Positions 15,655-55,100 of a DNA stretch of 64,000 nucleotides are shown here, piece after piece. Source of the DNA: an uncultured Monoglobus sp. (lineage in GTDB: Bacteria > Bacillota > Clostridia > Monoglobales > Monoglobaceae). Made by a program: the position numbers and the translations under genes. Position 1 is the first letter of the stretch, and each line of letters opens with the position of its first letter. Below the pieces are notes generated by a model. The model had not been told where the DNA came from. It searched no databases and was given only the letters and a program-made list of their open reading frames with translations. The stretch lies in contig CANRGH010000001.1 in assembly GCA_947630135.1 (NCBI GenBank), positions 186,001-250,000 of the forward strand, read 5' to 3'.

Positions 15655-16773
15655 ATGAAATTTATATGCGGCAGAGACGCTTTAAACGCGGTTGTTACCG
15701 ACGCCTCAAGGGCGGTCGCGGCCCGTTCCAGCATGCCCGTCCTTGAGGGAATTTACTTAAAAGCCGAGGACGGCGGACGGCTGACGGTTATCGGAAACGA
15801 CCTTGAAATCGCTATCGAATCGGTTATTGACGCGGACGTCCGCGAGGCGGGCGAGGTTGTGCTCAACGCCAAGCTGCTCGCGAGGATCATCGCGGCGTCG
15901 GGCGACGTTTCGGTTTCGGTCGAGACCGACAGCAACAACCTTACTCTTATCAAGTCGGGCAACGCCAAGATTGAAATCCCCGGGATCCCGTCAGACGACT
16001 TTCCCGATCTTCCCCATGTTGACGAGGAATATTCCGCGTCGCTCCCGGCGGCGGTACTTAAAAACATGATCGAGACCACGGCCTTCGCCGCGGCCAAGAC
16101 CGACAATGACCCCACGAGAATGGGCGTTCAGCTCAAAATCGCGGAGCACGGCCTTTCAATGGTCGCTCTTGACGGATACAGGATCGCGCGCCGCATTGTT
16201 GAGCTTGAGGGCGAGTATGAGCCGAAGGAAATGATAATCCCCGAAAAATCGCTGACGGAGCTCGCGAGGATAATCGGCGACTATGACGGCGACGTCAAAA
16301 TCGTCGCGGCGCCCGGCCACGCGGTGTTCACAATCGACAGCTGCCGTCTCGTGACCCGTCTGATCGAGGGGTCTTACACCAACTATGAGAGGATAATCCC
16401 CACGTCGTTTGATCTGGAGCTTGAGTGCTCGACCGCCATGATAGCCGACTCGGTAAGACGCGCGTCGCTTATTATCATCAACGACGTTATCAAGGGCCCC
16501 ATAAAGTTCACAATAACCGACGGCAATATCAACGTCTCGTGCAGCACGTCGGCGGGCTCGGTCGACGACAACATAGCGGTCGACACGCCGCCCGACACCA
16601 TGCTTGAGATAGGATTTTACAACCGCTATCTTCAGGACGTTTTCAACGTTGTTCCCGATGACGAGATCGTGATGAGATTCAACAAGAGCGTGAACCCGCT
16701 TATCATCACTCCCAAAGAGGGCAACGACTATATGTACATGATCCTGCCCATCAGGCTGAGAAGCTCATACTAA
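15655..16773 (+). CDS. dnaN: DNA polymerase III beta subunit (sliding clamp)
   Basis: 372 residues, normal length, with three clamp repeats. It starts MKFICGRDALNAVVTDASRA and ends in the typical clamp C-terminus YMILPIRLRSSY. Two copies form the ring that tethers polymerase III to DNA. GAAAGGAAAA precedes the ATG. It heads the dnaN-recF-remB-gyrB run and has its own promoter; the usual upstream neighbour dnaA is not present. Confidence 0.97.
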   Translation: MKFICGRDALNAVVTDASRAVAARSSMPVLEGIYLKAEDGGRLTVIGNDLEIAIESVIDADVREAGEVVLNAKLLARIIAASGDVSVSVETDSNNLTLIKSGNAKIEIPGIPSDDFPDLPHVDEEYSASLPAAVLKNMIETTAFAAAKTDNDPTRMGVQLKIAEHGLSMVALDGYRIARRIVELEGEYEPKEMIIPEKSLTELARIIGDYDGDVKIVAAPGHAVFTIDSCRLVTRLIEGSYTNYERIIPTSFDLELECSTAMIADSVRRASLIIINDVIKGPIKFTITDGNINVSCSTSAGSVDDNIAVDTPPDTMLEIGFYNRYLQDVFNVVPDDEIVMRFNKSVNPLIITPKEGNDYMYMILPIRLRSSY

Positions 16774-16780
16774 GCCGGTC

Positions 16781-17902
16781 ATGAGGGCAGACAAACTCCG
16801 GCTTGAAAACTTCCGCAACTACGAGGAGCAGGAAATTGAGTTCGGGCCAAAGATCAACGTGATACACGGCGACAACGCCCAGGGCAAGACCAACCTGCTC
16901 GAGGCCGTGCACATGTTCTCGCTCGGCCGCTCCAACCGGACGGCCAAGGACGCGGAGCTTATCCGCCACGGCTGCTCGGATGCGAAGATCGCTCTCGACT
17001 ACGCGGCCTATGACCGCGAGAGCAGATTTGAGATCGAGCTCGGCAGAAACAAGCGGAAGTCGATAACCTATAACGACATTCCGGTGAGGAAAAACAGCGA
17101 GCTTTTGGGCAAGTTCAACGTGGTCTATTTCGGCCCCGAGCTCATGGGGCTCGTGAAGGAGGGCCCGCGGGGCAGGCGGCGCAATTTTGACATGCTGATA
17201 AGCCAGCTCCGCCCCAACTATTTCTCGGCTCTCAGCAATCTGAGACGGGTGGTGGAAAGCAAAAACGCGCTGCTCCGCATGTCGGAGCCCAACCGCTCGC
17301 TGCTTGAGATAATGAACGAAAAGCTTGTCTCGTACTCGGCCGAGATCATCGGTTACAGGATCGAATTTATCCGCCGCGTCGAAAAGCTGGCGGCGGAGAT
17401 ACAGAGCGAGATCTCGGGCGGCCGCGAGGAGCTTAAATACCGCTACATGTCCTGCATCGGCAGGGTTGACGTCGAAAACGATATGACGCCCGACGAGATA
17501 GGCGAAAGGCTGCGCGAAAAAATCAAGGCGGCCGAGCCACGCGAGCTTGACAGCGGCGAGACGATAATCAGCCCGCACCGCGAGGACATCGCCTTTGAGA
17601 TAAACGGCAAGGACGCGCGCTCGTTCGCCTCGCAGGGGCAGCAGAAAACCATAGTTCTCGTGCAGAAGCTGGCCGAGGTGCGCCTGATAAGGGACGAGAT
17701 CTCCGAAACGCCTGTGCTGCTGCTGGACGACATTTTGAGCGAGCTTGACAGGAACCGCCGCAGATTTGTGATGAAATGCATTGACGATATGCAGATCATC
17801 ATCACCTGCACCGACCTTGAGGAATTTTCCGAGACTATGGACGGCGGCGGCGAGATCAACAAAATATATGTGAGCGGCGGCCGCGCCGAGCGGCAGCCGT
17901 AA
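16781..17902 (+). CDS. recF: DNA replication/repair protein RecF
   Basis: 373 residues. Walker A is GDNAQGKTNLLEAV (near 30-43), the ABC-type signature is SQGQQKTIVLVQKLAEV (near 285) and Walker B is PVLLLDDILSELDRNR (near 308). RecF loads RecA at gaps together with RecO/RecR. It begins 7 bp after dnaN with no good ribosome site, which points to translational coupling. The S4-domain protein often found between dnaN and recF is missing. Confidence 0.95.
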   Translation: MRADKLRLENFRNYEEQEIEFGPKINVIHGDNAQGKTNLLEAVHMFSLGRSNRTAKDAELIRHGCSDAKIALDYAAYDRESRFEIELGRNKRKSITYNDIPVRKNSELLGKFNVVYFGPELMGLVKEGPRGRRRNFDMLISQLRPNYFSALSNLRRVVESKNALLRMSEPNRSLLEIMNEKLVSYSAEIIGYRIEFIRRVEKLAAEIQSEISGGREELKYRYMSCIGRVDVENDMTPDEIGERLREKIKAAEPRELDSGETIISPHREDIAFEINGKDARSFASQGQQKTIVLVQKLAEVRLIRDEISETPVLLLDDILSELDRNRRRFVMKCIDDMQIIITCTDLEEFSETMDGGGEINKIYVSGGRAERQP

Positions 17903-17927
17903 GCGAGCGACAGAGAGGGATTTGTTT

Positions 17928-20251
<2,324 letters not shown>

Positions 20252-20280
20252 CTCAACCATATTTTATCGGAGGCTTGACT

Positions 20281-20898
20281 ATGATTTTAATCGAGAAAAC
20301 AAAGGTTATGAACCTTGAGGGCGCCATACGCGGCGCACGGAACCCCATGAACAGCTGGGCGCGGATCGACAGCAAATACGACGAAAAGGGCCGCTACATC
20401 TTAGGCCCCAACGATCTTGACCTCGCCAAGCGGCTGTGCAGGGCAGGCAGCGACCACCGCAAATTTATCCGCCAGATCATGGTGAGCGTGGACATCACCG
20501 CGCCGCTTTACTGGTGGAAGGAATTTGACACCTACAAGGTGGGCACCGTGGCGAACTCGACCAGCACTATGCACAAGATACACGCCAAGCCGTTTGAGGC
20601 GGCCGACTTTTCATGCGAAAAGCTGAGCAAGAGCGCAATGGAAGCCTTCACGGCGTATATGGAATTTTTGGAGCTCAAGCGCCTCCACTATGTTGAGACA
20701 AAGGACAAGGCGGACTGGGACGATATTATTCAGCTCCTGCCCTCGTCATATAACCAGAAGCGCACGATAACCATGAACTATGAAAATCTGCTCAATATGT
20801 ACTACGCGCGCAGGAACCACAAACTGAGCGAGTGGCACGAATACTGCGACTGGATATTGACGCTGCCCTACACAAAGGAGCTGTTTCTTGATGAATAG
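20281..20898 (+). CDS. Conserved hypothetical protein, ThyX-like motif region
   Basis: 205 residues from ATG 20281 (CGGAGG 7 nt upstream). The core, DHRKFIRQIMVSVDITAP followed by LYWWKEFDTYKVGTV and NSTSTMH (residues 59-98), is very like a protein family found in Clostridia and gut phages. It resembles the flavin/dUMP-binding region of flavin-dependent thymidylate synthase (ThyX) but lacks the canonical RHRxxSxNxxSxRY. A further conserved part is MYYARRNHKLSEWHEYCDWI near the end. The stop overlaps the next start by 8 bp. Thymidylate synthesis is not demonstrated; the family assignment is inference from recall. Confidence 0.6.
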   Translation: MILIEKTKVMNLEGAIRGARNPMNSWARIDSKYDEKGRYILGPNDLDLAKRLCRAGSDHRKFIRQIMVSVDITAPLYWWKEFDTYKVGTVANSTSTMHKIHAKPFEAADFSCEKLSKSAMEAFTAYMEFLELKRLHYVETKDKADWDDIIQLLPSSYNQKRTITMNYENLLNMYYARRNHKLSEWHEYCDWILTLPYTKELFLDE

Positions 20899-22225
20899 CG
20901 GCGGCGCGGAGCGCTTGTTTAAGACGGAAAACACGGAGGTCTGCGCCGAGCCGCTGTTCGGCCCGCTTATCGCCCTCCGTCACAGATTTGAGTTTGAGGT
21001 TTCCCCCGGGAAGCCTTTTTCTCAACGCCTGAAATTCAGCCTGCCGAAAAGCGCGGCAGTCTCGGGCTTTGAGATCGGAAACGGACGGCTGACCGTCGGC
21101 GGGGCTATCACCGAGGTCGCCGGAAAGACTGCCGCCTCTTTGCGCCAAACAAGCGAAACGGAATACAGCCTCGAGCTTTTCGACGTTCCCGCGGGCGGAA
21201 ATATTCTGACCGTCACTGTTTTCTCGGCGGCGGTCATGGAATATGACGGCGCGGGCGCATATTTTTTAAATATCCCGATCCGCGGCAGGACCGAAAGGAT
21301 CACCGCGGTTCCCGACGCGGACAGCAGCGGATATATATACAAATGCCCGACGGGCGGAGTATACTGCCTTTACGCGCTGCGCCCGAGGCTGAGCCGCGGC
21401 CTGTTCGGGCACATAAGGATCAGAGAATACTCCCACGGAACATACTACATGGTGCCGCGCGAGCTCGACGGGCTCAAAAAGGACGAGCCGATAACCGTCA
21501 CTTTGGGCTCGCAGATCTCATATCCCGAAAAATTCTATTTGGAACACGGCGGCGCGGAGACCGAGGTCCCGATAGACAAAATAACGCAGATCGGCTCACC
21601 GGGAGCCGCTCACGCCTTCGCCTGCCGTGCCATAAACGAAATGTATAAATACATCCGCCAAAACACACTCGCGCCCGAGTCGGTCATCAGGCTCAAAAAG
21701 CAGGCGGCGAGGCTCGCCGCCGAGACCGGAGTGCTGTGCCCCGAGAACCGCTGCGTTATAAGCTTTTCCGAAGGCGACATAAGAGCCGCGCGGATCTCGC
21801 TCACGGGCGGCGCCGAGGCGGGAAGGCCGAGGCTCGGCGGCGGTCTTTCGGACCCGAAGTCCATGACCTTCGCACGGGCACGGGAGCTGGCCGAGGCCGC
21901 AGTCAGAGCGCTTATGTGCTGCCTACGGACAGACGGCTCGTTCACCACGCCTTATACCTACGGCGCCCGCGCGGCCGCCGAGCAGAGCGCCTACGCTGCC
22001 GCGGCATTAAGAGCGATTGATAAGACCTTTCCCGAATACGCCGCGGCCGCGGAGAGCGCCGAAAGCTTTGCCCGCACGAACGGGATTGATCCCGAAAACA
22101 TTCCCGTTGTTTTTGATCGCGGCGAATATCTTTATTCTTCCGAAATTCTGGACAGCCTCGACGTAAAGCGCGTGTCGCGCCTGATTTTGTCGCTCAAGAC
22201 GGGGCTCTGGAGCGGGCTGACCTAA
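20891..22225 (+). CDS. Hypothetical protein with VIT-like beta domain, no vWA domain
   Basis: 444 residues from ATG 20891. Residues 20-125 read like a VIT domain: RLKFSLPKSAAVSGFEIGN, a G-AITEVAGK step, then ELFDVPAGGNILTVTVFSA. Residues 130-225 are beta-rich. The helical C-terminal half (AINEMYKYIRQ..., LKKQAARLAAETGVL..., DGSFTTPYTYGARAAAEQSA) resembles the tail of VIT-vWA proteins, but the vWA domain with its MIDAS DxSxS motif is absent. There is no signal peptide. It overlaps the preceding gene and converges on spoIIE with 4 bp of overlap. Function unknown. Confidence 0.6.
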   Translation: MNSGGAERLFKTENTEVCAEPLFGPLIALRHRFEFEVSPGKPFSQRLKFSLPKSAAVSGFEIGNGRLTVGGAITEVAGKTAASLRQTSETEYSLELFDVPAGGNILTVTVFSAAVMEYDGAGAYFLNIPIRGRTERITAVPDADSSGYIYKCPTGGVYCLYALRPRLSRGLFGHIRIREYSHGTYYMVPRELDGLKKDEPITVTLGSQISYPEKFYLEHGGAETEVPIDKITQIGSPGAAHAFACRAINEMYKYIRQNTLAPESVIRLKKQAARLAAETGVLCPENRCVISFSEGDIRAARISLTGGAEAGRPRLGGGLSDPKSMTFARARELAEAAVRALMCCLRTDGSFTTPYTYGARAAAEQSAYAAAALRAIDKTFPEYAAAAESAESFARTNGIDPENIPVVFDRGEYLYSSEILDSLDVKRVSRLILSLKTGLWSGLT

Positions 22226-24606
22226 GCCGCCGCGCCTCCGCCGGGCTCAAGGCGGACGCAGATCACCGTCATGTCATCATCTTCGATATTGTTTTCCTTG
22301 TTCCGCCGCACAGCCTCGTCCAGAATGATTTTGGCGAGTTCTTTGGGCGGGACTTCTATGTCAACGCACTCCACAAGCTCCTTGATCCACGGGTCCTCGG
22401 GCGGCGACGTCACTCCGTCGCTGGTCATGACCACGAGCGAGCCGTTTTCAAGAGTCCTCGCGAAGGCCTCAATGTCCCCGATCGGCACTATCCCTATCGG
22501 CAATGAGGCGGCGCGGATCGTTTCGGTGTAGGCGCCGTACTTTATGAAGCTTGGCTCCGCGCCGTTTTTTATAAACTCGATCTGGCCGGTGTAAAGATCG
22601 ATTATGCACATGTCGATCGTGGCGAAAACGTCCCGCGCCGATTTCATCACCATGATCGAGTTCACGAGCTTCACCGCGATCTTTTTGTCAAAACCCGCGT
22701 CAAGAAAACTGCTTAAAAGGTTTACGATCGTTCCGCTCTCAAGCGAGGCCCTGCGGCCCGTGCCCATTCCGTCGCTTATCGTGACGGCGAGCTTGCCGCC
22801 GCTTAAATAGTCGGTGTAATGCTTGTCCCCGCTTTCCGCGCTTCCCGACCGCGACGCTATTCCCACATTCGGCTCAAAGCTCTCAAGCTGGCAGAAACGG
22901 ATTTTGCATTTGCCGCCGTTTTTGGCCTCGCAGACGCCGAAGGGCGTGGAAACGCTTATGCCAAGTGTGTTTTTTATCTCGTCTTTTATTTTTTTGCGGC
23001 ACACGCTGTAATCATTGCAGTCGCTGACATGCGCCTCGATCGTGTACTTACGGTTTTTGTCGCAGATAACCTCCACGCGCTCTGCCTTTATCCCCGCGTC
23101 GCAGAGCCGCGCCTTGAGCTCGTCCGCGGCCTCAATGTCAAGCGTGTTCCCGCCGCATATTTCCTCGGCGGCGTTTTTTATTATTTCGGAAATTCCTTTA
23201 AACTGCTGCGAGGTCAGCTCGCGGCTCTCCTCGAGCTTGTTTTTCCATGTGGTGTTTATCTTGTATATCTCAAACAGACGGTTTATCTCGGTTATCAGCG
23301 GCAGCAAATGCACGCACTTATCCGAAAACGCCTTCGGCACGTCCGAGCGCTGCAAAACGCCCTTGCGCTCCATTATCTCAAGGAACTTGAACATTGCCGC
23401 GTAGGTGGCGTTAAAATCCTTTTCCCAGCAGTATCTCGATCTTTCGCAGTTTTTGCAGACGCGGTCGGCGGCGGTGTCAAACAGCAGCGAGATCTCAGTC
23501 ATATCGGCCGCGCCGCGGCCTTCCGACGTTTCGGAAAGAATTTCCGAGATCTCGTCAAACGAGTCCGCGATCCCGCCCAGCTTCTCGTCAACATAGCGGC
23601 GGAAACGCCCGATCTCATCCTCGCCGCCGATATCGAAATCTATTATCTTGTCGGCCGCGACTATGGCCGATCTCGGCACGAAATACAGCGCTGCGGCCGC
23701 CGCGATTATTTCATAAATATTAGGCAGGTGCGCGTAGCCCTCGGGGATGCCCAAATAAAGCATTGCCGCGAAGCCGAACAGGGCCGCGGCCGCGCACGCC
23801 GCCTTTTTGCCAAGCTTGGCGGCGATCCCGATCAGCAGTCCGCCGATCGTGAGATAGGCGGCGTAATCCGGGAAATTCCCGCCGAGCCCCAGAATTATTC
23901 CCGCGGCCGTTCCGCACATCGCGCCCCTCGTCACGCTCTTGCCGGTCAGCGTCACAATTCCTATCATCAGGAACGCGAGAAAATTTGAAAGGTTAAACAG
24001 GCCGAAAACGGTCATATATCGGCTGCTCAGCAGAATTATTCCCGCGGTGACGCACAGGCTTATTTTCTCATCAACCAGCAGGCCCCTGCTCAAAAATTTG
24101 TTTTCAAGCAGAACCACGCGGCAGCGGTCAAACACCAGCGCGCCAACGACCATAAGCAGCGTGTCGCAGAGCGCGAGGATGAGCCCCGCCACGGTGAACC
24201 CCGTCAAAAGCAGGGCAGCGGTCTCGCACAGAAACATCGAAACGCCCGCCGCCGCGGCGATAAAAACGAAGGACGGCGTTTCGCCGCGCTCGACCACAAA
24301 AAGAGCCGTCTCAAAAATCAGGCAGGCGGATATGTAGGCGAAGGCCTCGGGGAAATCAAACAGAACCAGATAGCCCGCGGAAACAAAAAGCAAATTCAAC
24401 ACGCTTCCGAGCGAAAATTTTCGGTCGATCGTAAGGAACGACAAGCCGAACGGCGCCAGCCCGCTGATCGGCATGGCGCCCGCGAGCAAAAAGCCGAGCA
24501 TTCGCAGCGGAATGTCCCGAAGTCTCAGCCTTAGGCGGCTTTTGTCCCTTTTCCCGTTATTCGGCTCCGGCAAATATTCCATCGCCATAAGCTCCGTATT
24601 ATTCAT
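22222..24606 (-). CDS. spoIIE: Stage II sporulation protein E (SpoIIE) phosphatase
   Basis: 794 residues. The N-terminal 300 or so are a multi-helix membrane region. A central cytoplasmic segment has a Cys-containing stretch (CKNCERSRYCWEKDF), and the C-terminal PP2C-type phosphatase domain (about 590-785) has VTISDGMGTGRRAS and MTSDGVTSPPED. In Bacillus SpoIIE dephosphorylates SpoIIAA to release sigma-F in the forespore and helps polar septation. Length and order match. GGAGGT precedes ATG 24606. A Spo0A-box-like site overlaps the -35 region of the upstream promoter. Confidence 0.95.
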   Translation of the reverse strand: MNNTELMAMEYLPEPNNGKRDKSRLRLRLRDIPLRMLGFLLAGAMPISGLAPFGLSFLTIDRKFSLGSVLNLLFVSAGYLVLFDFPEAFAYISACLIFETALFVVERGETPSFVFIAAAAGVSMFLCETAALLLTGFTVAGLILALCDTLLMVVGALVFDRCRVVLLENKFLSRGLLVDEKISLCVTAGIILLSSRYMTVFGLFNLSNFLAFLMIGIVTLTGKSVTRGAMCGTAAGIILGLGGNFPDYAAYLTIGGLLIGIAAKLGKKAACAAAALFGFAAMLYLGIPEGYAHLPNIYEIIAAAAALYFVPRSAIVAADKIIDFDIGGEDEIGRFRRYVDEKLGGIADSFDEISEILSETSEGRGAADMTEISLLFDTAADRVCKNCERSRYCWEKDFNATYAAMFKFLEIMERKGVLQRSDVPKAFSDKCVHLLPLITEINRLFEIYKINTTWKNKLEESRELTSQQFKGISEIIKNAAEEICGGNTLDIEAADELKARLCDAGIKAERVEVICDKNRKYTIEAHVSDCNDYSVCRKKIKDEIKNTLGISVSTPFGVCEAKNGGKCKIRFCQLESFEPNVGIASRSGSAESGDKHYTDYLSGGKLAVTISDGMGTGRRASLESGTIVNLLSSFLDAGFDKKIAVKLVNSIMVMKSARDVFATIDMCIIDLYTGQIEFIKNGAEPSFIKYGAYTETIRAASLPIGIVPIGDIEAFARTLENGSLVVMTSDGVTSPPEDPWIKELVECVDIEVPPKELAKIILDEAVRRNKENNIEDDDMTVICVRLEPGGGAAA

Positions 24607-24768: not shown

Positions 24769-27576
24769 TTAATTTTTGGGTCTTTCAAGCTTGGCGCCCA
24801 TAAACCTCGTCTTGGAACCGCCCGCTATATAGAAATAATAGCTCTTGCCGGCCTCAACGTTGATCTGGCAAAGCACCTTTTTGTTTGCCTCGTCGATCGG
24901 ATTATTGTATATATTCTCCGTGGCGGGATCGGCCGCGCCCTCGGGAACCGCGTAGAACATCGTGGGCGGATCTTTAACCGAAACGCCGTAAGCGTAGATC
25001 GTGAACCGTCCGCTCTCCGGCGCGGTATATTTCATAGCGCACCCGGTGGCCTTTCCGTCGGCCCAGCCGCCGTTTGTGTTTTTGCAGGTTATCGCGAAGT
25101 TGTGCTTAAAGCCATCGGAATATTCTTTCTCGTCGGTCATAGCTCTCTCGAGCTGCGTCATTCCCACAAGGCCGGGCATAAATTCGGTGCCCGCCGCCTT
25201 GTTTTCGTCTCCGCTTGCTGCTTTCCACTCGGAAGCAATCTCATATTGCGGCTCTGCGGGAGTCACATATCTTTCAAGCTTGGCGCCCATAAACCTCGTC
25301 TTGGAGCCGCCCGCTATATAGAAGTAATAGCTCTTGCCGGCCTCGACGTTGATCTGGCAAAGCACCTTTTTGTTGGCCTCGTCGATCGGATTATTGTAGA
25401 TATTCTCTGTGGCGGGATCGGCCGCGCCCTCGGGAACCGCATAGAACATTGTGGGCGGATTTTTTACCGAAACGCCGTAGGCGTAGATCGTGAACCGTCC
25501 GCTCTCGGGCGCGGTATATTTCATAGCGCAGCCTGTGGCCTTGCCGTCGGCCCAGCCGCCGTTTGTGTTTTTGCAGGTTATCGCGAAGTTGTGCTTAAAG
25601 CCGTCGGAATATTCTTTTTCGTCGGTCATAGCTCTCTCGAGCTGCGTCATTCCCACAAGACCGGGCATAAATTCGGTGCCCGCCGCCTTTTTCTCGTCGC
25701 CGCTTGCCGCCTTCCACTCGTTCACGAGCTCAAAAGTCGGCTGACTTGAGGGGCCTGTTGAGGGCTCGGGCTCGTTTACGGACGGGTCAAAATCCTTCGC
25801 GTCCGGATCATACGCGGGGTCGGGGGTGTAGCTCTTGTCGGCGAGCGCATTGGCGTATACCTCAAGGTTGGTATAGCCGCTTGCCGATATGGCAAGACCG
25901 TCGTCCGCATTGTTCTTGTCAAGACCGTTTTTATCCTCCCACTCGTTGGGCATTCCGTCGCCGTCGCTGTCCTTGGATTTTGTTCCGGTGAGTTCCGGAT
26001 ATCCGCCAACGTCGGAGGGCGAGCTGATTATGCCGTAGGTCGTGTCGGTCTTTGTAACGCCGTTGTCGTCGTATTTCTTATCAAGCTTTATACCCGTGCG
26101 GTTCTTGGTGTCGTCTATGACCCGCTGATCCGCGGAGTCGCGCGCGATACTCGCGCCCGCACTTTCGAGCACTGACTGATAGGCTTCTTCGGCCGTCTGG
26201 GTCGTGACGGGATAATCGTTTTCATACTTAAAGTGAACCGCCTTTGCCTCGTCGGTTATGTTATTCTTTGTCCAGATATATTTTTTGGATGCCGAGCTGT
26301 CCTCATCAACTCCCTTTGAGTTATCGGCGGTGACTTCGGCGTTTCCGTCAACATAGTTTCCGTCAACATAGATATCGGTGCTCCACGGCGACGTTATGTC
26401 GTTGCCTGTGGATGTGGTCTGGAAGATCCTGCTTCTCACGCGATTTGACGTCGACGGGCCGTATTTGTAGTAGCTGTTGATTATGTTCGCGGCCGCGGCG
26501 CCCTGTCCGCCGTAGGCGGAGTTGCCGCCCCAGTTGTAGATTACGTTGTTGCGAAGATCGGTCAGACTTGTCTGTGCGCTCATGTCATAATCCGCTTGGC
26601 CGACAAACGGACCCTCGGCGATCCTCGGGTTCCTGCTGTCGTGATGCGCAAGCAGGTTGTGGTGGAAGCTGGCGTTTGTGCCGCCCCAAATTCCCGCGTA
26701 GCCGTGGGCTTCCTTGGCGTGAACAGAGTGCTTGAGGCTTTCCGCGACTATGCACCACTGCATGGTAAAGTCGGTTACTTCATAGAACGAGGCGCACTCG
26801 TCAACACTCCAGCTGAACGAGCAGTGATCAACGATTATATTGTGCCTGCCGCGGCTTCCGATCGTGTCCTCCTCCATTGTCTTTTCATCGCCCATTCTGA
26901 ACCTCATATAGCGCAGAATGACGTTGTTTCCGGTGATGTCGGTGTTGCAGTTTTTCACGCACACGCCCATTCCGGGGGCCGTCTGGCCGAGTATGGTCAG
27001 ATTGTCGGCCTTGATCGTCAGCGTGTCGGTAAGCTCAATATTTCCCGCAACGTCGAACACGATTATTCTGTTCGGCTGCGATACCGCGTCGCGGAACGTG
27101 CCGTAGCTGCCGTCGTCGGTCAGCTTGTATACATGATAAACCTCCGGGCTGCCGCCTCTTGCGCCCGTTGTCCACATTCCGCCGCCCTCGGCTCCGGGGA
27201 AAGCGGGAAGCTTGTCAGGCGCCGCCGCGACGGGCTCGCCGTGGGGCGCGATCGAATTATCCGACCAGAGATAGCATTTAACGCCATTCGCCGCGCCGTT
27301 TAAAGTCGCCGAAACAGCCGTTTCGCCGCCGCTCGGCACTGTCTTGACAGCGGCGTCGGTAAGAGCGTCGCCGCTGTATGCCGCCGCGATAAACATAACG
27401 TCGGAGCCGCTTGTGTTCATGACCTTGGCCGAGACGGTGTTTCCCGAGACCGTCGGCTCTGATGTATAGTAAACCTCGGCGCCGCTGTCCGCCGCGAACG
27501 CCGGAACGCATATTGACGAAAGCGCCACGCACAGAGCAACAAGCCAAATAACGGCCGTCAATTTTCTGAGTTTCAT
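24769..27576 (-). CDS. Secreted pectate lyase (PL1-like) with duplicated C-terminal modules
   Basis: 935 residues. A signal peptide ends near ...VPAFAADS (about residue 29). The catalytic part (about 120-500) is a right-handed beta-helix pectate-lyase type: FPGAEGGGMWTTGARGG, AVSQPNRIIVFDVAGNIELTD, ILGQTAPG, NIIVDHCSFSWSVDE, HDSRNPRIAEG. A calcium-binding SKDSDGDGMPNEWEDKNGLD segment (about 530) resembles a thrombospondin-type-3 repeat. The C-terminus has two nearly identical modules of about 150 residues, each starting with EWKAASGDE and ending with KTRFMGAKLER. The enzyme would cut de-esterified homogalacturonan by beta-elimination. No SLH or sortase signal is present, so it is probably released. 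Confidence 0.9.
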   Translation of the reverse strand: MKLRKLTAVIWLVALCVALSSICVPAFAADSGAEVYYTSEPTVSGNTVSAKVMNTSGSDVMFIAAAYSGDALTDAAVKTVPSGGETAVSATLNGAANGVKCYLWSDNSIAPHGEPVAAAPDKLPAFPGAEGGGMWTTGARGGSPEVYHVYKLTDDGSYGTFRDAVSQPNRIIVFDVAGNIELTDTLTIKADNLTILGQTAPGMGVCVKNCNTDITGNNVILRYMRFRMGDEKTMEEDTIGSRGRHNIIVDHCSFSWSVDECASFYEVTDFTMQWCIVAESLKHSVHAKEAHGYAGIWGGTNASFHHNLLAHHDSRNPRIAEGPFVGQADYDMSAQTSLTDLRNNVIYNWGGNSAYGGQGAAAANIINSYYKYGPSTSNRVRSRIFQTTSTGNDITSPWSTDIYVDGNYVDGNAEVTADNSKGVDEDSSASKKYIWTKNNITDEAKAVHFKYENDYPVTTQTAEEAYQSVLESAGASIARDSADQRVIDDTKNRTGIKLDKKYDDNGVTKTDTTYGIISSPSDVGGYPELTGTKSKDSDGDGMPNEWEDKNGLDKNNADDGLAISASGYTNLEVYANALADKSYTPDPAYDPDAKDFDPSVNEPEPSTGPSSQPTFELVNEWKAASGDEKKAAGTEFMPGLVGMTQLERAMTDEKEYSDGFKHNFAITCKNTNGGWADGKATGCAMKYTAPESGRFTIYAYGVSVKNPPTMFYAVPEGAADPATENIYNNPIDEANKKVLCQINVEAGKSYYFYIAGGSKTRFMGAKLERYVTPAEPQYEIASEWKAASGDENKAAGTEFMPGLVGMTQLERAMTDEKEYSDGFKHNFAITCKNTNGGWADGKATGCAMKYTAPESGRFTIYAYGVSVKDPPTMFYAVPEGAADPATENIYNNPIDEANKKVLCQINVEAGKSYYFYIAGGSKTRFMGAKLERPKN
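24782..25714 (-). repeat. Tandem duplication inside the pectate lyase gene
   Basis: Positions 24782-25225 and 25271-25714 are near-identical at DNA level, offset by 489 bp (163 codons), and encode the two C-terminal modules. The near lack of silent differences indicates a recent duplication or gene conversion. Confidence 0.9.
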
Positions 27577-44168: not shown

Positions 44169-47100
44169 TTAGTTAGCCGCGGGATATTTAACAGAGAAAG
44201 ATCTGATATAACCAATATTTCCTGTTATAACTATATCCGCACTTGCTTTACCCGAAACAGTAACGCTTTGATCGCTTCCGACTTTTTCGGTGCCGTCAAT
44301 GGTATATGCTCCGTCAGCATTCATTATTTGAACCATTGTTATTACAGAATCACCGTAAATCGGAACAGTAAATTTTGTTCCGGGATTGCACTGGGCCCAA
44401 TCTGTCCAATTCTTGTTCGCAAGCTTTCCGCCATTGTTGGTATCAACATCCGCTTTAACATCAATAGGTTTGCCGTCGGCTGTTGTTCCCTGAGCAACAT
44501 ATATCTTGTTCGCATTCTGCCACTCAATAGTGGGAGCACCGTTTCTTGTCTGGAAGTCAAACACAACATCTCCTACCGGAACCGCATTCGCATCATTCTG
44601 TGTAAATACCGGTGTCAGCGTCATATCTTTGCCAACGGTGATTGACTCGCCAATCTTGTATTGGGTCGTACCGTTATCGGGCGTCCACGCGGTAAACGTA
44701 TAACCTTCCTTATAGAAAGCTCTGTATTTAGTAACCGCGATTTTCTCTCCAACATCAACCGTAGCCTCAGCAGGAACATCTCCTGTTACAGCTGCATCAT
44801 CGCCAAAGCTGTATGTTACCGTAGCTTGTTTCGCGGGGGTCGGTACAGCACTTGCCTCAACATTCTCAATCTTCAGATAGTGAATGTATCCCGCGTTGTT
44901 AAATTCAACTTTTACCTTTCCCGCATCCGGGCCGGGATAATACAATACCTCGTATCCGTTGCCTTCTGTTGCTTTGTCGCCGTAACAAACCTGATTAAAT
45001 TTTTTGCTCCAAAGCACATTACCGCTCGCGTCCTTAAGCTCGCCGCTGGACATGCTGCCGTATGCGCAAACGCCTATCGTAACCTTAAGCGGGCCAACAG
45101 CATCAATATCAATGCTGTTTACGTTCATAGAACCATGAGTAGCATCATGGAAAGCTGAATCGCTGTCAAACGTAATGCCCTTAGCCTCAAGCGCCGCGAT
45201 TGTTTCCGGTTTGAACGCTGAACCTTCTGTATTGCCTACATAGTTCGAGGCGTCATTCAGCTTTATCTCATAATCATTTGATGTAATCTCGGGCTTCGGA
45301 GTCGCGTCGGGGTCCTCGATCTCGGGGGATACTACCTTGATGTTATGCAGATAGATTGTTCCGCCGGTAATTGAGAACACAAGCTCCGCCGCTTCGCCTT
45401 CATAGGCGAAATCGATCGCGGTGTTGTCGGATGAGGTTTTCAGATTAGCGCTCGCGGGTGTAATTCCCTCTGTCTCCGCTGTGATCATTGTGGCGTCGCC
45501 CGCGAAAGCGCAGCCGCCCAGCGAAATTGTTGACTTACCCGCCGGAACCAGTATTTTTACCTTGAGAGGCTTGGTATTGTCAGCGTCGCATACGCCGTGG
45601 TCGTTATAATATTTCATGTTTTCAAACTTAACCAAGCCATCCTGTGTTACAAACTGGTTATAATTTACCTGAACGGTCGGAACCTGACTGCCATTTCCGA
45701 GCTGATATGTCGTTGTGCCGCCCAATACTTTGGGAACAACCTTTGTGGCTTCGATTGCGGGATCAGCGCTGTCATATTTTACAACAATGTCCTTGGGGAT
45801 CGTGTAAGCGCTCGCGCCGCCATACACGCCCGATACCTCAAACTTGCCTGAAGCCGCCAGCGTCACCTTAGCCTCGCCGCTTGTGACGGACAAAGCTTTG
45901 CCTACGCCGTCAAGCTTTCCTATAACTGTAACCGCGCTCGCGTCAGCCTCATCAAGACCGTTAACCTTTATGGTTACCTCTTTCTCCGGCTCGGGAGTGG
46001 GAACCTCGGCCGAGGGGTGTTCGGGCGATATAACTGTCACGTCTCTGAAAAATCCGCCGTTTGTTATCACTATATCAACCGTGGTGTCTGTTCCGTAGTA
46101 AGTATAGGTCTTCGGCGTTTTTTCGCTTACAAATTCCTTGCCGTTAATGGTGTACGCTTCTGTGCCGTAATAGGTGTCGCCGACTGTGATCTTGCTGCCG
46201 TTTACAACGGGAACAGTCAGCTTTACCTCGGCGTCAACGCCTATCCAGTCGCCTTGGTCGCGGCCGCCCCATTTGCCTGTGGTGGCCTCAATGGTCATTG
46301 TGGAGTCGCCGCCAACGCTGTTCTTTACGACATAATCCCACTTTTCACCGGCGTTAACGGTGTACTGGAGATTGTCGGAACCCTTGGGATAACCTTCATT
46401 CATCTGGAAAGTCCACTTTGAAGTGATGTAGTTCTGCTCGGCCTCCGCGCCCTCGGTTGTGGGAACGAACTTAGCTCCGAGATAGTTGCCCTTTGAGCCG
46501 CTTACCGAAGCGTAGTATGTCTCGCCCTTAGTCACGTCAACCGTTACCTCAACGGGCTTGTTCTCACCGTTTAAGGTTGTGGGATCCGCCGTGCTGCCAA
46601 CATAGAAGGTCTTGTTCGAGCCGGGGATAGCGTAAACCGTCCACTTGCCGTCTGCGGGAGCGACAAACTTAAGCTGGTTAGCGCCGTCCTGCGGGGGCCA
46701 TCTGCCGTTATTGCTGTTACTGCTCAGACCGCAGTCGAACTTAATACCGCCTGCTTCGCCGCCGGCGCCCTTTTTGTCGGGCGAATACATGATCGTCATA
46801 CCTCTCATAAGGTATGTGTCCTTGGGTGTTCCAACCTCGCCCGCGTTGGCTCTCCAGAATGTGGTGTAAGCCTTTGTCGCGTCAGTGTGATCGGAAACCG
46901 CTATATCGTCATATGTGCCGTCTGCAAGACTAACCGCTGAAAGAACGTCTGTCAGCGCGCCTTCAACCGCAGCTGCCTCGCCGCCGTTTACCGAAACGGT
47001 GATCTTGTCAGCGATAGAGATCTCAACGGTGTTCCACTTATCCGCTTCAAGGCCCGCGGGTGTAACAGCCACGGTCTGATCCTTCGCGTCTTTAAGTGTG

Positions 47101-50100
47101 GCAACGCCGCCTGCAGCGCCGTATACCTTGTAGGATACCTTAACGGGATCGCCGGCCACGGGCGCAACGTCAAGCGCCGCGGAAACCGCGCCCTTGACAG
47201 CCTTGCCGGACTCGCCGGCGGGATCGTCGATAACCGAGCCGCCAACGGTTGAATATCCGCCCTCGAAATCATCGTAATACAGATCAGCCTTCTTGTAGGG
47301 GATAGAAACATCATACGAGATTTCTTCTCTTACCAGAGCGCCGTCCTTTACGCACTCGATCGTGTACTTAACCGTGCCGTTTGCAGCCTCGGAAGCGTAA
47401 GCGTTTCTGATGATAGTTCCGTCGGGATTGATAAATCCGCTGAACTCGGCCGTAACGTTGGTCTTAACGCCGTCAATATCCTCAACCGCCGGGATGGGCG
47501 CCTGTCTGTCAAGAACAGTTACGCCGTAATCATTCTTCTGGCTGTATGCCGCGTCGAGAACCGCTTTGGCCGCCGCCATTGCCTGCTGGAACGGCGCCGG
47601 ATCGATCGTCGGATCGGCTGTGATCGAAACATTGATCTCGCGCGATGCTCCGACAGGACCTGCCATAGGCGAGCTCTTGAGCTTAATGTAGGCTGTGATC
47701 GATGTCTCAATGGTTCCCTCAACGGGTCTTGTTACCGCAACATTGCCTTTGTCGTCTATCTTGAGATAATTCTCATTGTTGCTTATAAAGCGAACGTCAT
47801 ACTTGGGAGCGCCGGGATACTCCGCGGGCAGAGTGAAGTTGCCCGATACAGTGTACACGCCGTCCTCGCCGAGTTTGAGAGTGTCGCTCTCGGGGATCTT
47901 AAGATCGTTCATGTCGGCAATCACAGGCTCCCAGACAGCTTTTACGCCCATGGGATCCCAATCGTCGCCTTCCTTGATCATGTAATTATACGGATTGAAC
48001 TTCAGCGCTTCCCAAACATCGGGAAGAACAACGTTTCTCTTCTTAGACGCGAGGTCGATCGGGTTGCCCTCGGCGTCAAGCGTGCCGTACTCATAGTACT
48101 TGGACTCGACGGCCTTAGATGACCAGTCGCCCCAGCCGGAATCCATGATCGCGGGTGTCTTTCCGTCCTTCAGATTGAGAACCTGAACGCCGATCGCCGC
48201 TGTGGGCGAATCGTTTCCGCCCCAAGGACGTCCGAAGTCGCCGGCAACGAATGTGCCGCCCAATGTTCCCATTCCAACGCGTCCGCCGTAGAGCAGATAG
48301 CCCTTCTCGGTGGTGGAATTCTTAACAGCCGTTACATGACCGCCGGCCGAGCCTGTTCCGTAACCGGCCCAGTTGAAGTCGCAGTCGTCGAATATCAGAG
48401 TGTTTCCGCCGAACATATAGTCGGTCTGACCCTCGATCGTGCAGTTCTTGAAGTAAATTCTGTTGTCCTTTGAACCCGAATAGATCGTGTCCTGAGAGCT
48501 GAGGAACTGGCAGTTATAGAATTCAGTTTTGTCGCAGGTGTCCTCGATAGCGATCGCGGCCGCTCTCTCGGTGAAGTCTCTGCCGTATACGTTTGAATCC
48601 TTTGTTCTCTCGGGCTTGCCGCCTGTGTCGGAATATACTCCGCCAACAGGTGCCGGCTTAACGCCGTCTTCGATCTCCTCATCCGTTATATATCTGTTGA
48701 ACGAGTTCTCAAATACAATGTCTTTCGCGATAAGATTGCTTCCCGTAAGTCTGGTAGCGCAGCCCCATCTGTCAACGCCTCTGTCGGCAACTGTGCCGGC
48801 CGCTTTGTTTGCTTCGTAAGCGGACTTGCTGTAGTAGCCGTTCGAGCCGGTGCTGTAATACTGATAGCCTATGCCATAGTACCATGTGAACAGAACGTCG
48901 CCCTCGGTTTCGGGAGCCTTCTGGATCGTCAAATAGTTAACGTCAATCATGATCTGCTCGCGGTATATGCCGGGAACAACATTGATCTGGATCCTGTCGG
49001 CCTCACTCGCGTGGCTGTTCATGCTCTTTGCGTATGCGATAGCCTCGTTAACTGTCTTAAAGGTCTTCTGCTCCGCGTTTGTATCCTTTGAGCCGTCAAC
49101 CGTAATAACGTTTGAGGGGGCAACTGTCGGCGCGGGCGGTGTGGGAACTGTATAAGCAACCTCAACCGCGATCGCGTGATTGGGCATTGTGAACTTGCCG
49201 TCCGCAACCGCAAGATTAACGGGTATGCCGTCCTCGCCGTAGATCACTACCGCGGCCTCGGCGCCCTCAACGTCGGGTGTGGTGTTTATAGTTACCTCTG
49301 AGCCTTCAAGGATCTCATACTCACTGTAAGTCTGCGGCTCGTCGCCGGGCTGCTCGGTAGCGGCGGGCTCATCCGTTGCCGTGGGCTCGTCTGTTGCCGC
49401 GGGCTCATCCGTTGCCGCGGGCTCATCTGTTGCCGAAGGCTCATCCGTGGTCTCGGGAGCGCTTGAGAGATCAGCTTCAACCTTTAAGCTTATATCGCCG
49501 AAGTATGCGGGGTTCGCCGTTTGAACCAGACGGATCTGAGTTATAACGTTATCAATATCCGCTATTGTACCCATCGTCGCTGTGCCGAGCTGTGTGCCGT
49601 CGGCAGCCGTGGCCGTTACCGTGATAAGCTGCGCGGGATCGGCGCTGTAATCAACAACGATCTCATAGGTTACCCACTGAGCCGAAGTAATAGCGGTGTA
49701 TGGGAATAAAGTGCCGCCTTCCGCACCTGACGTACGTCCAACATCGAGGCCGGGGCCGTAGTTTATGTTATTTCCGGCATTGTTTAAAGCTTCCGCCGCT
49801 ATGGTTTTTTTGTCGTTCTTGGCGTCCGATGTGGCGGTCGCGTTTGCGTTCTCCAGATAAATTCTGAAATTGCGCTCAACCGTCGGATCAAGATAATGAG
49901 CCGCAGTGAAAATCAGCTTGCCCTTCGCCTCGGCAACTTCCGCCATTGTGTGGCCGTTTAATCCTTCAACAGCGGCCTTGTTGGCATCGATATTATAATA
50001 AGCGTTTTTGCTTGTTATATTCATAGCGAACTTGCCTTCATATTCTAATGTCGCGCCGGCGCCGTTCGCACTGCCGTCATCGCCTGCTACCCAGCCTGTG

Positions 50101-52167: not shown

Positions 52168-55100
52168 TTAGAATTCCACGTTTACCTTTGTGTCGGCCGC
52201 AGGCATCTCGAAGGTGTAATATCCGTCCTTGCCCTCAACGGGTGTAACCGTTGTGCCGGGCAGCGTCAGAACGTTCTTTGCCTTCGGGCTGGTCTTGATC
52301 GTGATGATCTCGCCGGGAGCCGCCATATAAGACTTGGCTAAATTCTCATCAGACGGTGTCGTGCCATAGTTCACGGGAGCCCAGCCTCCGAAGTATTGCT
52401 CGGGTGTGGGCAGCGTGTAACCGTTGGCGTCGTAGGTTCCGTTGGGGTTATCGGTCGAAGCCGTGATGTCCGTCGCGGGATCGCCTGCCTTGTAAACGCC
52501 GTTTACTACATAGTATATAGCCACTTCGGGGCCGCTGCCGCTCATCGAGGTCCAGCCTGTGGGCTTGTTGACGCCATCGCCTATCGTGGTGTTGTCGAAG
52601 ATAGTAACGGTCTTGCCCTTGCCGCCCCAAGGTCTGCCCCAGTTGCCGCCTTTTCCGGCATCCATTTCCGTATCGGGATTTCTGGTGATCGTGCAGTTCT
52701 TGAAGTAGTAGCCCAGGTCTGTCTCGGCCGAATTCTTGCAGGCCGTGATGTAGCCGCCGTTGTCGCCGCCGGTCATGCCCTGCCATCTCAGTTCGCAGTT
52801 CTCGAAGTAGCAGTTGTTTCCGCCGCAGATGTAGTCGGTGTTGCCCGAGATCATGCAGTCCTTAACGTACATTGAAGACGCACCTGTGCCGAACGTGTCC
52901 TGGCTGGATACGAACGAGCAGTTGTAAAGCTCGATCTCGCTGCCGCCGGCGAATATAGCCGCCGCTCTCTCGTTGTAGGTCCTGTTGTTTACCTTGGTAT
53001 CGAGGCTGTCTCTGAACACGTCTGTCTTGGCGTCTCCGCCACCGGGAGTTACGTGGTCGTCAAGCTCTTTCTGAGTGATGTACAGATTGAAGCTGCTCTG
53101 AACGTCGATGTTCTCCATGTAGAAGCCCCTGTTCAGAGTTCTGATCGTCGATCCCCAGTTATTGACCGTCCACTGGCCCGTCTTGGCGACAGCGTATTCG
53201 GCGCTGTACCAGCCCTGATAGGACTTGCCCTCGCCGGTCTCGGGATCGCCCGGGTCTGTCTGAGGCGCGGCTGAGTCGTAAACATAGCCTATGCCGTAGT
53301 ACCAGGTGATCAACGGTCTTTGCTCGGGATCCGCCGCCTTGAGAGCTATATCATCCATGTTGACATAGAGCTGCTCTTCATAGGTGCCGGGGTCGATAAC
53401 TATCGTAACGACCTGACCGGGCTCTCTTGACATCAGTCTTACCGCCGCGAGAGCCTCACTGATCGTTTTGTATTCCTTGTCGGCGCCGACCGTCAGAGTG
53501 TCTTTATAATCAAGCTTATCGGGGCCGTCCTTCATCAGAAGTATGTTCTTGAAGGGGTTCTGATCGCCCGCCAGGAACTGATAGCTTCCCGACAGAGGCG
53601 ACAGCGTGTATGCCTGACCGTCCGCCGTCGTGAGGGCGATATCGTATGTCTCGTTGGACATCAGCGTAACCTTGTATGTGCCGTCCGCAGCTACTTCGGC
53701 TGTGTCGTAAGGCTCGGCCTCACCCTGCTTGGTGAATGTCAGCTTGGCGCCTATGGCCGCGTCGTAGGGATATACGGGCGTCAGCAGGTCGTGCGACGAG
53801 ATCGTCGAAACATTACCGCCTACCTCAGCGTTCGCGATAAGAACGAACGTCAGATCCATTGTCTGGTCGTATCTGTTCTGCTCGATCTTGATATGCTGAG
53901 ATTCAATAGTCGCGCAGACGTCTGCTTCGCCCTCGATCGAGGGTGTAAACGTCTTGCCCTTGGGCAGCGTGATGCTGTAATCATCCTCAACGGGTATCGA
54001 ATATGTTTCTGTCGGGTCATCGTCATTTGTGAACACGATGTTCTTGCCGCTTAAATCGCGTCCGGTCAGGTTCTGAACGCTTCCCGACAGAGTCTTATCG
54101 GGCGTTTCCTCATAGTACTCGATGAATATCGCGTAGAGGTTCTTGTTGGAGCCGCCGCCGTAGGTGTAAACGGGCTTGCCGCTCTCGGCCTGAGCCTTTG
54201 TCAGGTCGTAAGTCACCGCTGTCACGCCATCTTTGCCCGAAGCTTCCGAGGCAACAACCTCGGGTGTGCCGTCGCCGTCAGCGTCATAGGCGATGTTCTG
54301 GGATCTGCCGGCATTGCCGTGACCGTCAAACACTACCGTGACCGTGCAGGCATAGGGCTCGGGAATGATCGAAACAAACATCTTCTCGGTGCTGCCGCCG
54401 CCGCCTCTCAGCGAGCCGGTCAATTTATACTCCTGTCCGTTGTCATGGGTGTAGTTCACGCTTCTGCTCACGTCGTATACGTATCCGGGACCTACCACCG
54501 CGCCGTCAACGTTTTCAACCGGAGCGGTAGCATTGGAATCGTAATTAGCCAGCGCTTCCTTGACCGCCGGGTTATCAAGCTTCCAGATCTTATCCGCGGG
54601 GAGATTTCCTGACTCGCCTGAATCCGCAGGCTCACCTGAAGCCGTGGGCTCGTCAGCAGCGGCAACCGCGGACGCCTCATAAGGCATATCCGCCGCGAGA
54701 GCCGAAGTCGTTGCGTCGGGTGAGAATACTATCGCGTAGTAGCTCGTGTTGGTGTCGCTGTATACCTGAACATTCTCTCCGCCAAAAATTTTCTGCTCAA
54801 GAACCGGATAGCCCTCGGCAGGCTTTTCTCCCGAACCCGCGAGAGTGAGTTTGGAAACCTCGCTGTTATTAATGGCGATATGCAGTACCGTGTCATTGCT
54901 GTCGCCGCTGGTCGCGTATACATATACGGTTCCGTTTACGGGAGTGGTAAACTCGAAGCACTTGTCCTTTAAATACTCGCCGGGCTCTTCGGCAGGTTCT
55001 AATGTGCCTCTGCCCTGTGTCTTAATCGACGATGTAAATATCCGGCCGTCAGCGAAATTTTTTGTGCCTTTCTTTACAAACGCATTCACGGTAGGCTTTG

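Follow-up and report, generated by a model that had tools for sequence, protein, structure and literature searches.

We analysed a window of 64,000 nucleotides (G000:C1:186001-250000) from the genome of an uncultured bacterium of the genus Monoglobus or a very near one (2.35 Mb in 42 contigs, 99.5% complete), with a focus on two overlapping genes, here called gene 1 and gene 2, which lie between gyrB and a spoIIE-like gene. In our estimation, with a probability of roughly 0.8, gene 1 encodes the missing thymidylate synthase, which is related to ThyX, though divergent, and takes the place of ThyA and ThyX in the Monoglobaceae and in several other clostridial lineages. This reading is based on the predicted fold, the conservation, the mutual exclusion with ThyA and ThyX, and the gene neighbourhoods; the reaction, the cofactor and the roles of single residues are what we infer. 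Nearly all cells depend on thymidylate synthesis for their DNA, and to our knowledge only two families of thymidylate synthases are recognised. If the reading is correct, an enzyme which databases call hypothetical would be at work in many gut Clostridia (Monoglobus, Hungatella, Lachnoclostridium, Oscillospiraceae) and in hundreds of gut phages. The predicted dependence of these bacteria on thymidine from others would then be wrong, metabolic models would have to be corrected, and the rebuilt active site would reveal which elements of the ThyX mechanism are exchangeable.

Gene 1 in genomes without ThyA and ThyX

In the genome that contains the window, a search for ThyA gave no match, and a search for Thy1 returned gene 1 itself as the sole match, below the cut-off, and no other ThyX. 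Among 23 genomes of the order that are at least 90% complete, gene 1 is present in 14, ThyA in eight and ThyX in one; no genome has two of them and none lacks all three. In an even draw of 393 genomes of the class, of the same completeness and including the 23 of the order, ThyA was identified in 196 and ThyX above the cut-off in 168, both in 13 and neither in 42 (eight further Thy1 matches below the cut-off, all in Monoglobus genomes, correspond to gene 1 and do not enter the ThyX count). Gene 1 occurs in 36 of the 393, that is, in 30 of the 42 genomes without ThyA and ThyX and in six of the 351 with either (Fisher p 2e-29); when its own family is excluded, the numbers are 16 of 28 and six of 350 (p 3e-16), both p-values ignoring kinship. 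The genomes with gene 1 only come from nine families (f1, f9, f15, f16, f150, f154, f161, f176 and f212), seven of which include other genomes with ThyA or ThyX and no gene 1, the remaining two (f161 and f212) being represented by one genome each. Genus g418 is divided, with gene 1 alone in two genomes and ThyA alone in one, and all four genomes of genus g321 have gene 1 only. A phylum-wide search found gene 1 in 7 of 398 genomes, a yield too sparse to be useful. Gene 1 is, as would be expected of a functional stand-in, present in genomes without ThyA and ThyX in both the order and the class sample, and it fills the ThyA/ThyX gap in many Clostridia. The 12 near-complete genomes of the class in which none of the three was found (G445, G452, G474, G517, G519, G570, G575, G584, G648, G700, G736 and G786) are either thymidine auxotrophs or possess yet another enzyme.

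Family and predicted fold of gene 1

Gene 1 is a full-length member of the PHROG family phrog_6721 (E 1.7e-71), for which PHROGs gives the function as unknown; it differs from the phage members in that the gyrB-linked and dihydrofolate reductase (DHFR)-linked chromosomal branch is not part of a phage. A Pfam scan of gene 1 gave no match to ThyA (PF00303), and the scores against Pfam Thy1 (PF02511; 20.6 bits, cut-off 24.8) and NCBIfam ThyX (TIGR02170; 12.9 bits, cut-off 87.9) stay below the thresholds, with a Thy1 match at E <=0.1 in 14 of 20 aligned relatives. Searches with phmmer and hmmsearch for a solved relative found none, and such a relative turned up by the fold search alone. The AlphaFold2 model of gene 1, built on an alignment of 20 relatives, reached a predicted local distance difference test score (pLDDT) of 87.1 and a predicted template modelling score of 0.77 (pLDDT of the five models, 87.1-65.7). 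All 50 matches listed by Foldseek for this model are ThyX chains (best E 8.5e-7). In VIA-align the model matched ThyX of Helicobacter pylori (3n3y_A) with Z 13.5 over 186 residues (root mean square deviation 3.1, 17% identity), and another fold first appears, at Z 4.6, after 47 rows of ThyX or its relative PolB. No ThyA is among the chains listed by VIA-align, although such a listing by itself excludes nothing. The proposal of the preliminary description that gene 1 is ThyX-like is thus borne out by the predicted fold. The likeness extends over the whole length of gene 1, is accompanied by the same exclusion with ThyA, and includes the C-terminal block LPSSYNQKRTITMNYENLLNMYYARR, which hhalign aligned well with its ThyX counterpart (the LP...TMN...R block).

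Conserved residues and the altered ThyX motif

The core LYWWKEFDTYKVGTVANSTS, which had been described as strongly conserved, is present, and an alignment of 104 family members, all below 75% identity, confirms its conservation. Eight residues (L52, S93, S95, M97, P154, R177, H180 and P196) are invariant in all 104, and Y85 is kept in 103 of them. The motif DT[YFHW]-x7/8-S-x-S-T-M-H fits 187 of the 208 loci that have an open reading frame (ORF) of the family; among the other 21 there is a distant clade of the type ERYRF...SSQSTMH, and none of the 21 shows RHRX7S. Likewise, the RHRX7S motif of ThyX is not present in gene 1, which has T84-Y85-K86 in place of R-H-R. This assignment comes from nine registers that were scored against 11 ThyX segments, a comparison of sequence scores and not of a printed structural alignment: in the best register for both clades, T84-Y85-K86 stand opposite R78-H79-R80 of the Thermotoga maritima enzyme (TM0449), whose Ser88, Arg90 and Tyr91 correspond to T94, T96 and M97. 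D83-T84-Y85 as the counterpart of RHR, with S93 in the place of Ser88, was rejected because the neighbouring register scores better in both clades (mean over all rows, -5.8 vs -29.9). RHRX7SxRY of ThyX would then read TYKX7TxTM in the window protein and would take an RY(R/H)X7QxTM-like form in the distant clade, and the S-x-S-T-M-H signature further sets the family apart. In T. maritima ThyX, deoxyuridine monophosphate (dUMP) is contacted by Arg78, Arg80, Ser88 and Arg90, as stated in PMC3498832, and it is activated by Arg174 with the assistance of Ser88 and Tyr91, according to PMC8316439. Residue R177 of gene 1, found in 104 of 104 relatives, was aligned with this arginine by hhalign. Judged from the aligned sequences, the dUMP-activating arginine appears to be kept and most of the ThyX motif to be rebuilt. 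Membership of ThyX by motif was rejected on the grounds of the register test and of the scores below the PF02511 and TIGR02170 cut-offs; because most of the motif is rebuilt, we do not file gene 1 as ThyX, though we hold it to work like one.

Neighbours of gene 1 and its relatives

The gene directly upstream of gene 1 is gyrB, both in the window and in 21 distinct Monoglobaceae loci that were fetched. The earlier remark that nothing about gyrase explains the pair holds poorly for gene 1, as an enzyme for a DNA precursor is sensible beside dnaN-recF-gyrB. At nine of the 208 loci, including those of Hungatella effluvii DSM 24995, Lachnoclostridium sp. An14 and Clostridium sp. chh4-2, a DHFR gene follows on the same strand at a distance of at most 99 base pairs (bp), and at a tenth locus it is 892 bp away; six of these proteins from five loci were identified by Pfam PF00186 (E 2e-41 to 1e-45), the rest by phmmer similarity. 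In H. effluvii (L175 5428-7156), the gene 1 relative is flanked by two different DHFR genes, one on either side. The distant-clade gene of G598 and G687 directly follows ribD-ribE-ribBA-ribH (one RibH and one RibBA confirmed by Pfam), in pILYOP01 of Ilyobacter polytropus the relative begins 15 bp after nrdD-x-nrdG, on the Selenomonas plasmid pSRC4 it comes after a dUTPase gene, a hypothetical gene and ssb, and in the Enterocloster phage PMBT24 a deoxynucleoside monophosphate kinase gene is nearby. Among the viral neighbours, 142 of 277 proteins, the longer ones, were scanned in Pfam and 135 were left out; NRDD was found in six, the guanylate-kinase family and MazG in four each, and FolD and nucleoside deoxyribosyltransferase in two each, amid replication genes. 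Gene 1 relatives thus keep company with genes for DHFR, flavin synthesis, ribonucleotide reductase and dUTPase. Among 21 phage records with a gene 1 match, 16 annotate it as hypothetical protein and five not at all, and all 13 plasmid records call it a hypothetical protein. A literature search of titles and abstract openings, with most subscription journals outside its coverage, returned nothing on the family or on thymidylate synthase in the lineages that carry it.

Proposed reaction and alternative explanations

It might be hypothesized that gene 1 forms a ThyX-like oligomer that holds dUMP, that methylene-tetrahydrofolate supplies the carbon, and that a flavin in its reduced form carries this carbon and reduces it, so that deoxythymidine monophosphate (dTMP) results, with the RHR/Ser/Arg/Tyr set replaced by (T/R)-Y-(K/R/H) ... 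S-x-S-T-M-H and the dUMP-activating R177 retained; many phages would carry the same kind of enzyme. The use of flavin is suggested by the fold and the riboflavin operon link. The DHFR link means that, unlike in ThyX, dihydrofolate might be the product: gene 1 is sometimes found beside DHFR, whereas organisms with ThyX often lack it, according to PMC1971073. In this respect, as in its presumed product dTMP and in the mutual exclusion, gene 1 would resemble ThyA, a need for DHFR being suggested by the downstream DHFR in Lachnospiraceae; the two share no sequence match. It might even be speculated, as a tentative extension which we regard as possible and not as probable, that the family makes up a third kind of thymidylate synthase in its mechanism and not in its sequence alone: its dUMP/flavin site would be rebuilt, it would leave dihydrofolate like ThyA and hence depend on DHFR, and, exchanged with phages, it would several times have been recruited in place of ThyA and ThyX. 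Such dependence would account for the DHFR beside gene 1 in Lachnospiraceae.

Several observations weigh against gene 1 being a thymidylate synthase. All four dUMP-binding residues of ThyX named above (R78, R80, S88 and R90) are exchanged in gene 1 (T84, K86, T94 and T96). The similarity to ThyX in the profile-profile comparison is weak, with E 3e-4 and a probability of 38%, and the probability fell to 4% with the deeper 104-row alignment. Six genomes (G110, G524, G620, G635, G687 and G788) possess gene 1 together with ThyA or ThyX, and 12 of the 393 possess none of the three. The latter group indicates that a genome can do without a synthase, presumably through salvage of thymidine. In four of the six overlap genomes, the copies look phage-borne or broken: that of G524 is a fragment of 99 amino acids (aa) and those of G620, G635 and G788 lie among phage-like genes, while G687 carries a copy behind the riboflavin genes and another among phage-like genes, and the copy of G110 looks chromosomal. 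The DHFR-linked loci fall into one 12-row clade of the tree described below, so that this link goes back to one or few events; the neighbourhood evidence as a whole stems from few clades. Finally, the phage regions Fnu1, LIBA6276 and bajarodcaudo mostly contain replication genes or unannotated neighbours, and the neighbours of the Cetobacterium copy are not telling.

Alternatively, the lineages with gene 1 could be thymidine auxotrophs which live on salvage by thymidine kinase, gene 1 being a related nucleotide enzyme whose product differs, for example a methylase or hydroxymethylase of dUMP, uridine monophosphate (UMP) or deoxycytidine monophosphate. Bacteria carry thyA or thyX, and the few with neither carry tdk, according to PMC1971073; the 12 genomes without any of the three enzymes and the rebuilt motif point in the same direction. 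Furthermore, PolB, the UMP/dUMP methylase of polyoxin synthesis (4p5a, 4p5b), demonstrates that the ThyX fold, to which gene 1 is matched at Z 12.1-12.4 in this case, can serve an altered task. However, this explanation does not account for the fact that, in seven families, gene 1 occurs precisely in the genomes that lack ThyA and ThyX, nor for the adjoining DHFR, NrdDG and dUTPase genes; unlike PolB, gene 1 has replication and DNA-precursor genes as neighbours. We consider it unlikely.

Another proposal is that gene 1 and gene 2 work as one functional pair, as a complex or as a toxin-antitoxin or defence system, produced in fixed ratio. The two genes overlap by 8 bp in the window, in G007, in G010 and perhaps in G014, and gene 2 (26-97% identity) lies beside gene 1 in each of the 12 Monoglobus genomes. 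Outside the genus, gene 2 adjoins the gyrB-adjacent gene 1 at none of the 10 loci read from other Monoglobaceae genera. The preliminary description had named absence of the pair elsewhere as a refutation, and on this point the outcome is divided. In comparison with G012, gene 2 is 35% identical where gene 1 is 92%, the length of gene 2 varies, and in other Monoglobus genomes the two genes are separated by gaps. This difference in spacing and the AAGGAG sequence of gene 2's own speak against the joint production in fixed ratio that had been deduced from the overlap. A toxin-antitoxin or defence pair was rejected, as PADLOC gave no hits for either protein and gene 1 occurs without gene 2. Since gene 1 is widespread without gene 2, no shared function is indicated, and a functional pair seems very improbable.

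It is even harder to maintain that gene 1 is a phage gene for DNA modification or takeover, involved in the synthesis of modified pyrimidines, and that the chromosomal copies are prophage remains. The family does occur in Clostridia and gut phages, as initially noted: no fewer than 569 genome stretches and no fewer than 591 viral ones encode it, and some host copies (L210, L220-L223) reside among phage-like genes. A quick tree was calculated from 126 of 208 rows, after removal of short matches, of duplicates from the same genome and of roughly half of the rows from viruses and from other hosts; it has several long branches and no bootstrap. In this tree the 22 gyrB-linked rows form one clade (99) within a chromosomal branch of 67 rows that holds a single viral row, most viral rows fall outside this branch, and the riboflavin-linked clade is far off. 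The separate chromosomal branch, the linkage to gyrB and a conservation like that of housekeeping genes argue against prophage remains: across 22 Monoglobaceae genomes gene 1 retains 75-97% identity, and in comparison with G012 it is, at 92%, nearly as slow as gyrB (96%) and slower than dnaN (88%). Besides its chromosomal copy, the Monoglobus genome G013 has, on contig C1, a second, phage-type copy of gene 1 (L071 7406-8140; 47% identical) among phage-like genes.

That ThyA or ThyX is present but was missed through assembly gaps or extreme divergence, so that the exclusion is an artefact, is scarcely credible: most genomes are drafts, including the one analysed here, but the single-contig genomes G005 and G472 fit the pattern too, the control genomes gave matches in the ThyA and ThyX searches (9 of 14 and 6 of 14), and the same pattern recurs in nine families.

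Gene 2 resembles a VIT protein without vWA domain

Scans of gene 2 against Pfam and PHROG gave no match, including none to VIT (PF08487). The structural model of gene 2 (pLDDT 77.7, with residues 294-322 under 50) matched the inter-alpha-inhibitor heavy chain ITIH1 (6fpy_A) with Z 17.6 over 267 residues, the next fold being at Z 7.8. As the match spans residues 13-293 against 54-615, the vWA part may be skipped in gene 2. From about residue 325 onwards the protein has a helical end. According to this model, gene 2 consists of the VIT domain and the region after vWA of an inter-alpha-inhibitor heavy chain, and thus resembles ITIH1 and the VIT-vWA proteins except for the missing vWA domain. Among the 12 orthologues of the genus, three (690-751 aa) have an extra segment of about 200 alignment columns that is absent from the window protein and eight others (444-519 aa), and in one of the long orthologues (L056) Pfam detects VIT (E 0.004; 17.8 bits, cut-off 26.5) and VWA_3 (E 0.008), both below the cut-off. 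Predicted fold and orthologue alignment agree on the earlier suggestion of a VIT protein whose vWA domain has been lost. The long orthologues L055, L056 and L058 have a vWA-like, degenerate segment with DTADSS, DSDGLK and DSENFS at the position of the metal-site motif. Compared with DxSxS, which we take to be the canonical vWA motif, these versions look decayed, and the decay possibly represents a step towards the loss of vWA in the window protein. In G019, which belongs to another genus, a VIT relative of gene 2 (L070 4801-7308; VIT 26.0 bits, cut-off 26.5) is located beside queH (epoxyqueuosine reductase) and not beside gene 1. Gene 2 is a separate VIT-family protein that is situated downstream of gene 1 by chance in Monoglobus. 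As no signal sequence is evident by eye, it might, as a guess, be an internal binding protein of the VIT type.

The locus and other genes of the window

Both genes are real and are kept as proteins. The ORFs, their flanking genes and the 8-bp overlap (20891-20898) are as initially described (Table 1), with TTG at 20888 as a possible alternative to the ATG start of gene 2 at 20891. Gene 1 starts 29 bp past the end of gyrB, and no promoter-like site was found on the plus strand of this interval, which is weak evidence for one transcript of gyrB and gene 1. The 3' end of gene 2 runs 4 bp into the spoIIE-like gene, which is kept downstream in 10 of 12 Monoglobus loci. The order dnaN, recF, remB, gyrB upstream of gene 1 is the same in the RefSeq annotation of M. 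pectinilyticus, where gene 1 and gene 2 are both labelled 'hypothetical protein'.

Table 1. Position of gene 1, gene 2 and adjacent features in the window
Feature	Position	Strand	Basis
Gene 1, divergent ThyX-fold protein, candidate thymidylate synthase, 205 aa	20281..20898	+	ATG ORF
Shine-Dalgarno-like GGAGG of gene 1	20269..20273	+	sequence
Gene 1 residues 83-98 (DTYKVGTVANSTSTMH), place of the ThyX motif	20527..20574	+	conservation, register test
Gene 1 R177 codon, invariant, putative counterpart of T. maritima ThyX Arg174	20809..20811	+	alignment, conservation
Gene 2, predicted VIT and C-terminal part of an inter-alpha-inhibitor-heavy-chain-like protein, vWA missing, 444 aa	20891..22225	+	ORF, alignment, model
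AAGGAG inside gene 1, possible ribosome site of gene 2	20875..20880	+	sequence
gyrB	18299..20251	+	directly precedes gene 1
remB (RemA-like)	17922..18224	+	Pfam PF04025; annotated remB in M. pectinilyticus
recF	16781..17902	+	ORF; annotated recF in M. pectinilyticus
dnaN	15655..16773	+	ORF; annotated dnaN in M. pectinilyticus
spoIIE-like gene (name from the preliminary description)	22222..24606	-	ORF; convergent with gene 2

A 368-kb M. pectinilyticus record in PLSDB, 'plasmid 15' (NZ_OY725739.1, L310), bears dnaN-recF-remB-gyrB and carAB and is for this reason probably a mislabelled piece of the chromosome. Further downstream in the window, positions 44169-51971 and 52168-59415 of the minus strand encode two adjacent giant proteins of 2600 and 2415 aa with near-identical starts, each having three SLH stretches and one pectinesterase domain, which suits the pectin-degrading Monoglobus. 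Between these and gene 2, a protein of 935 aa with a signal-like start (24769-27576, minus strand) gave no Pfam matches at 1e-5; its C-terminal half displays, in the translation, two nearly identical repeats of about 135 aa each.

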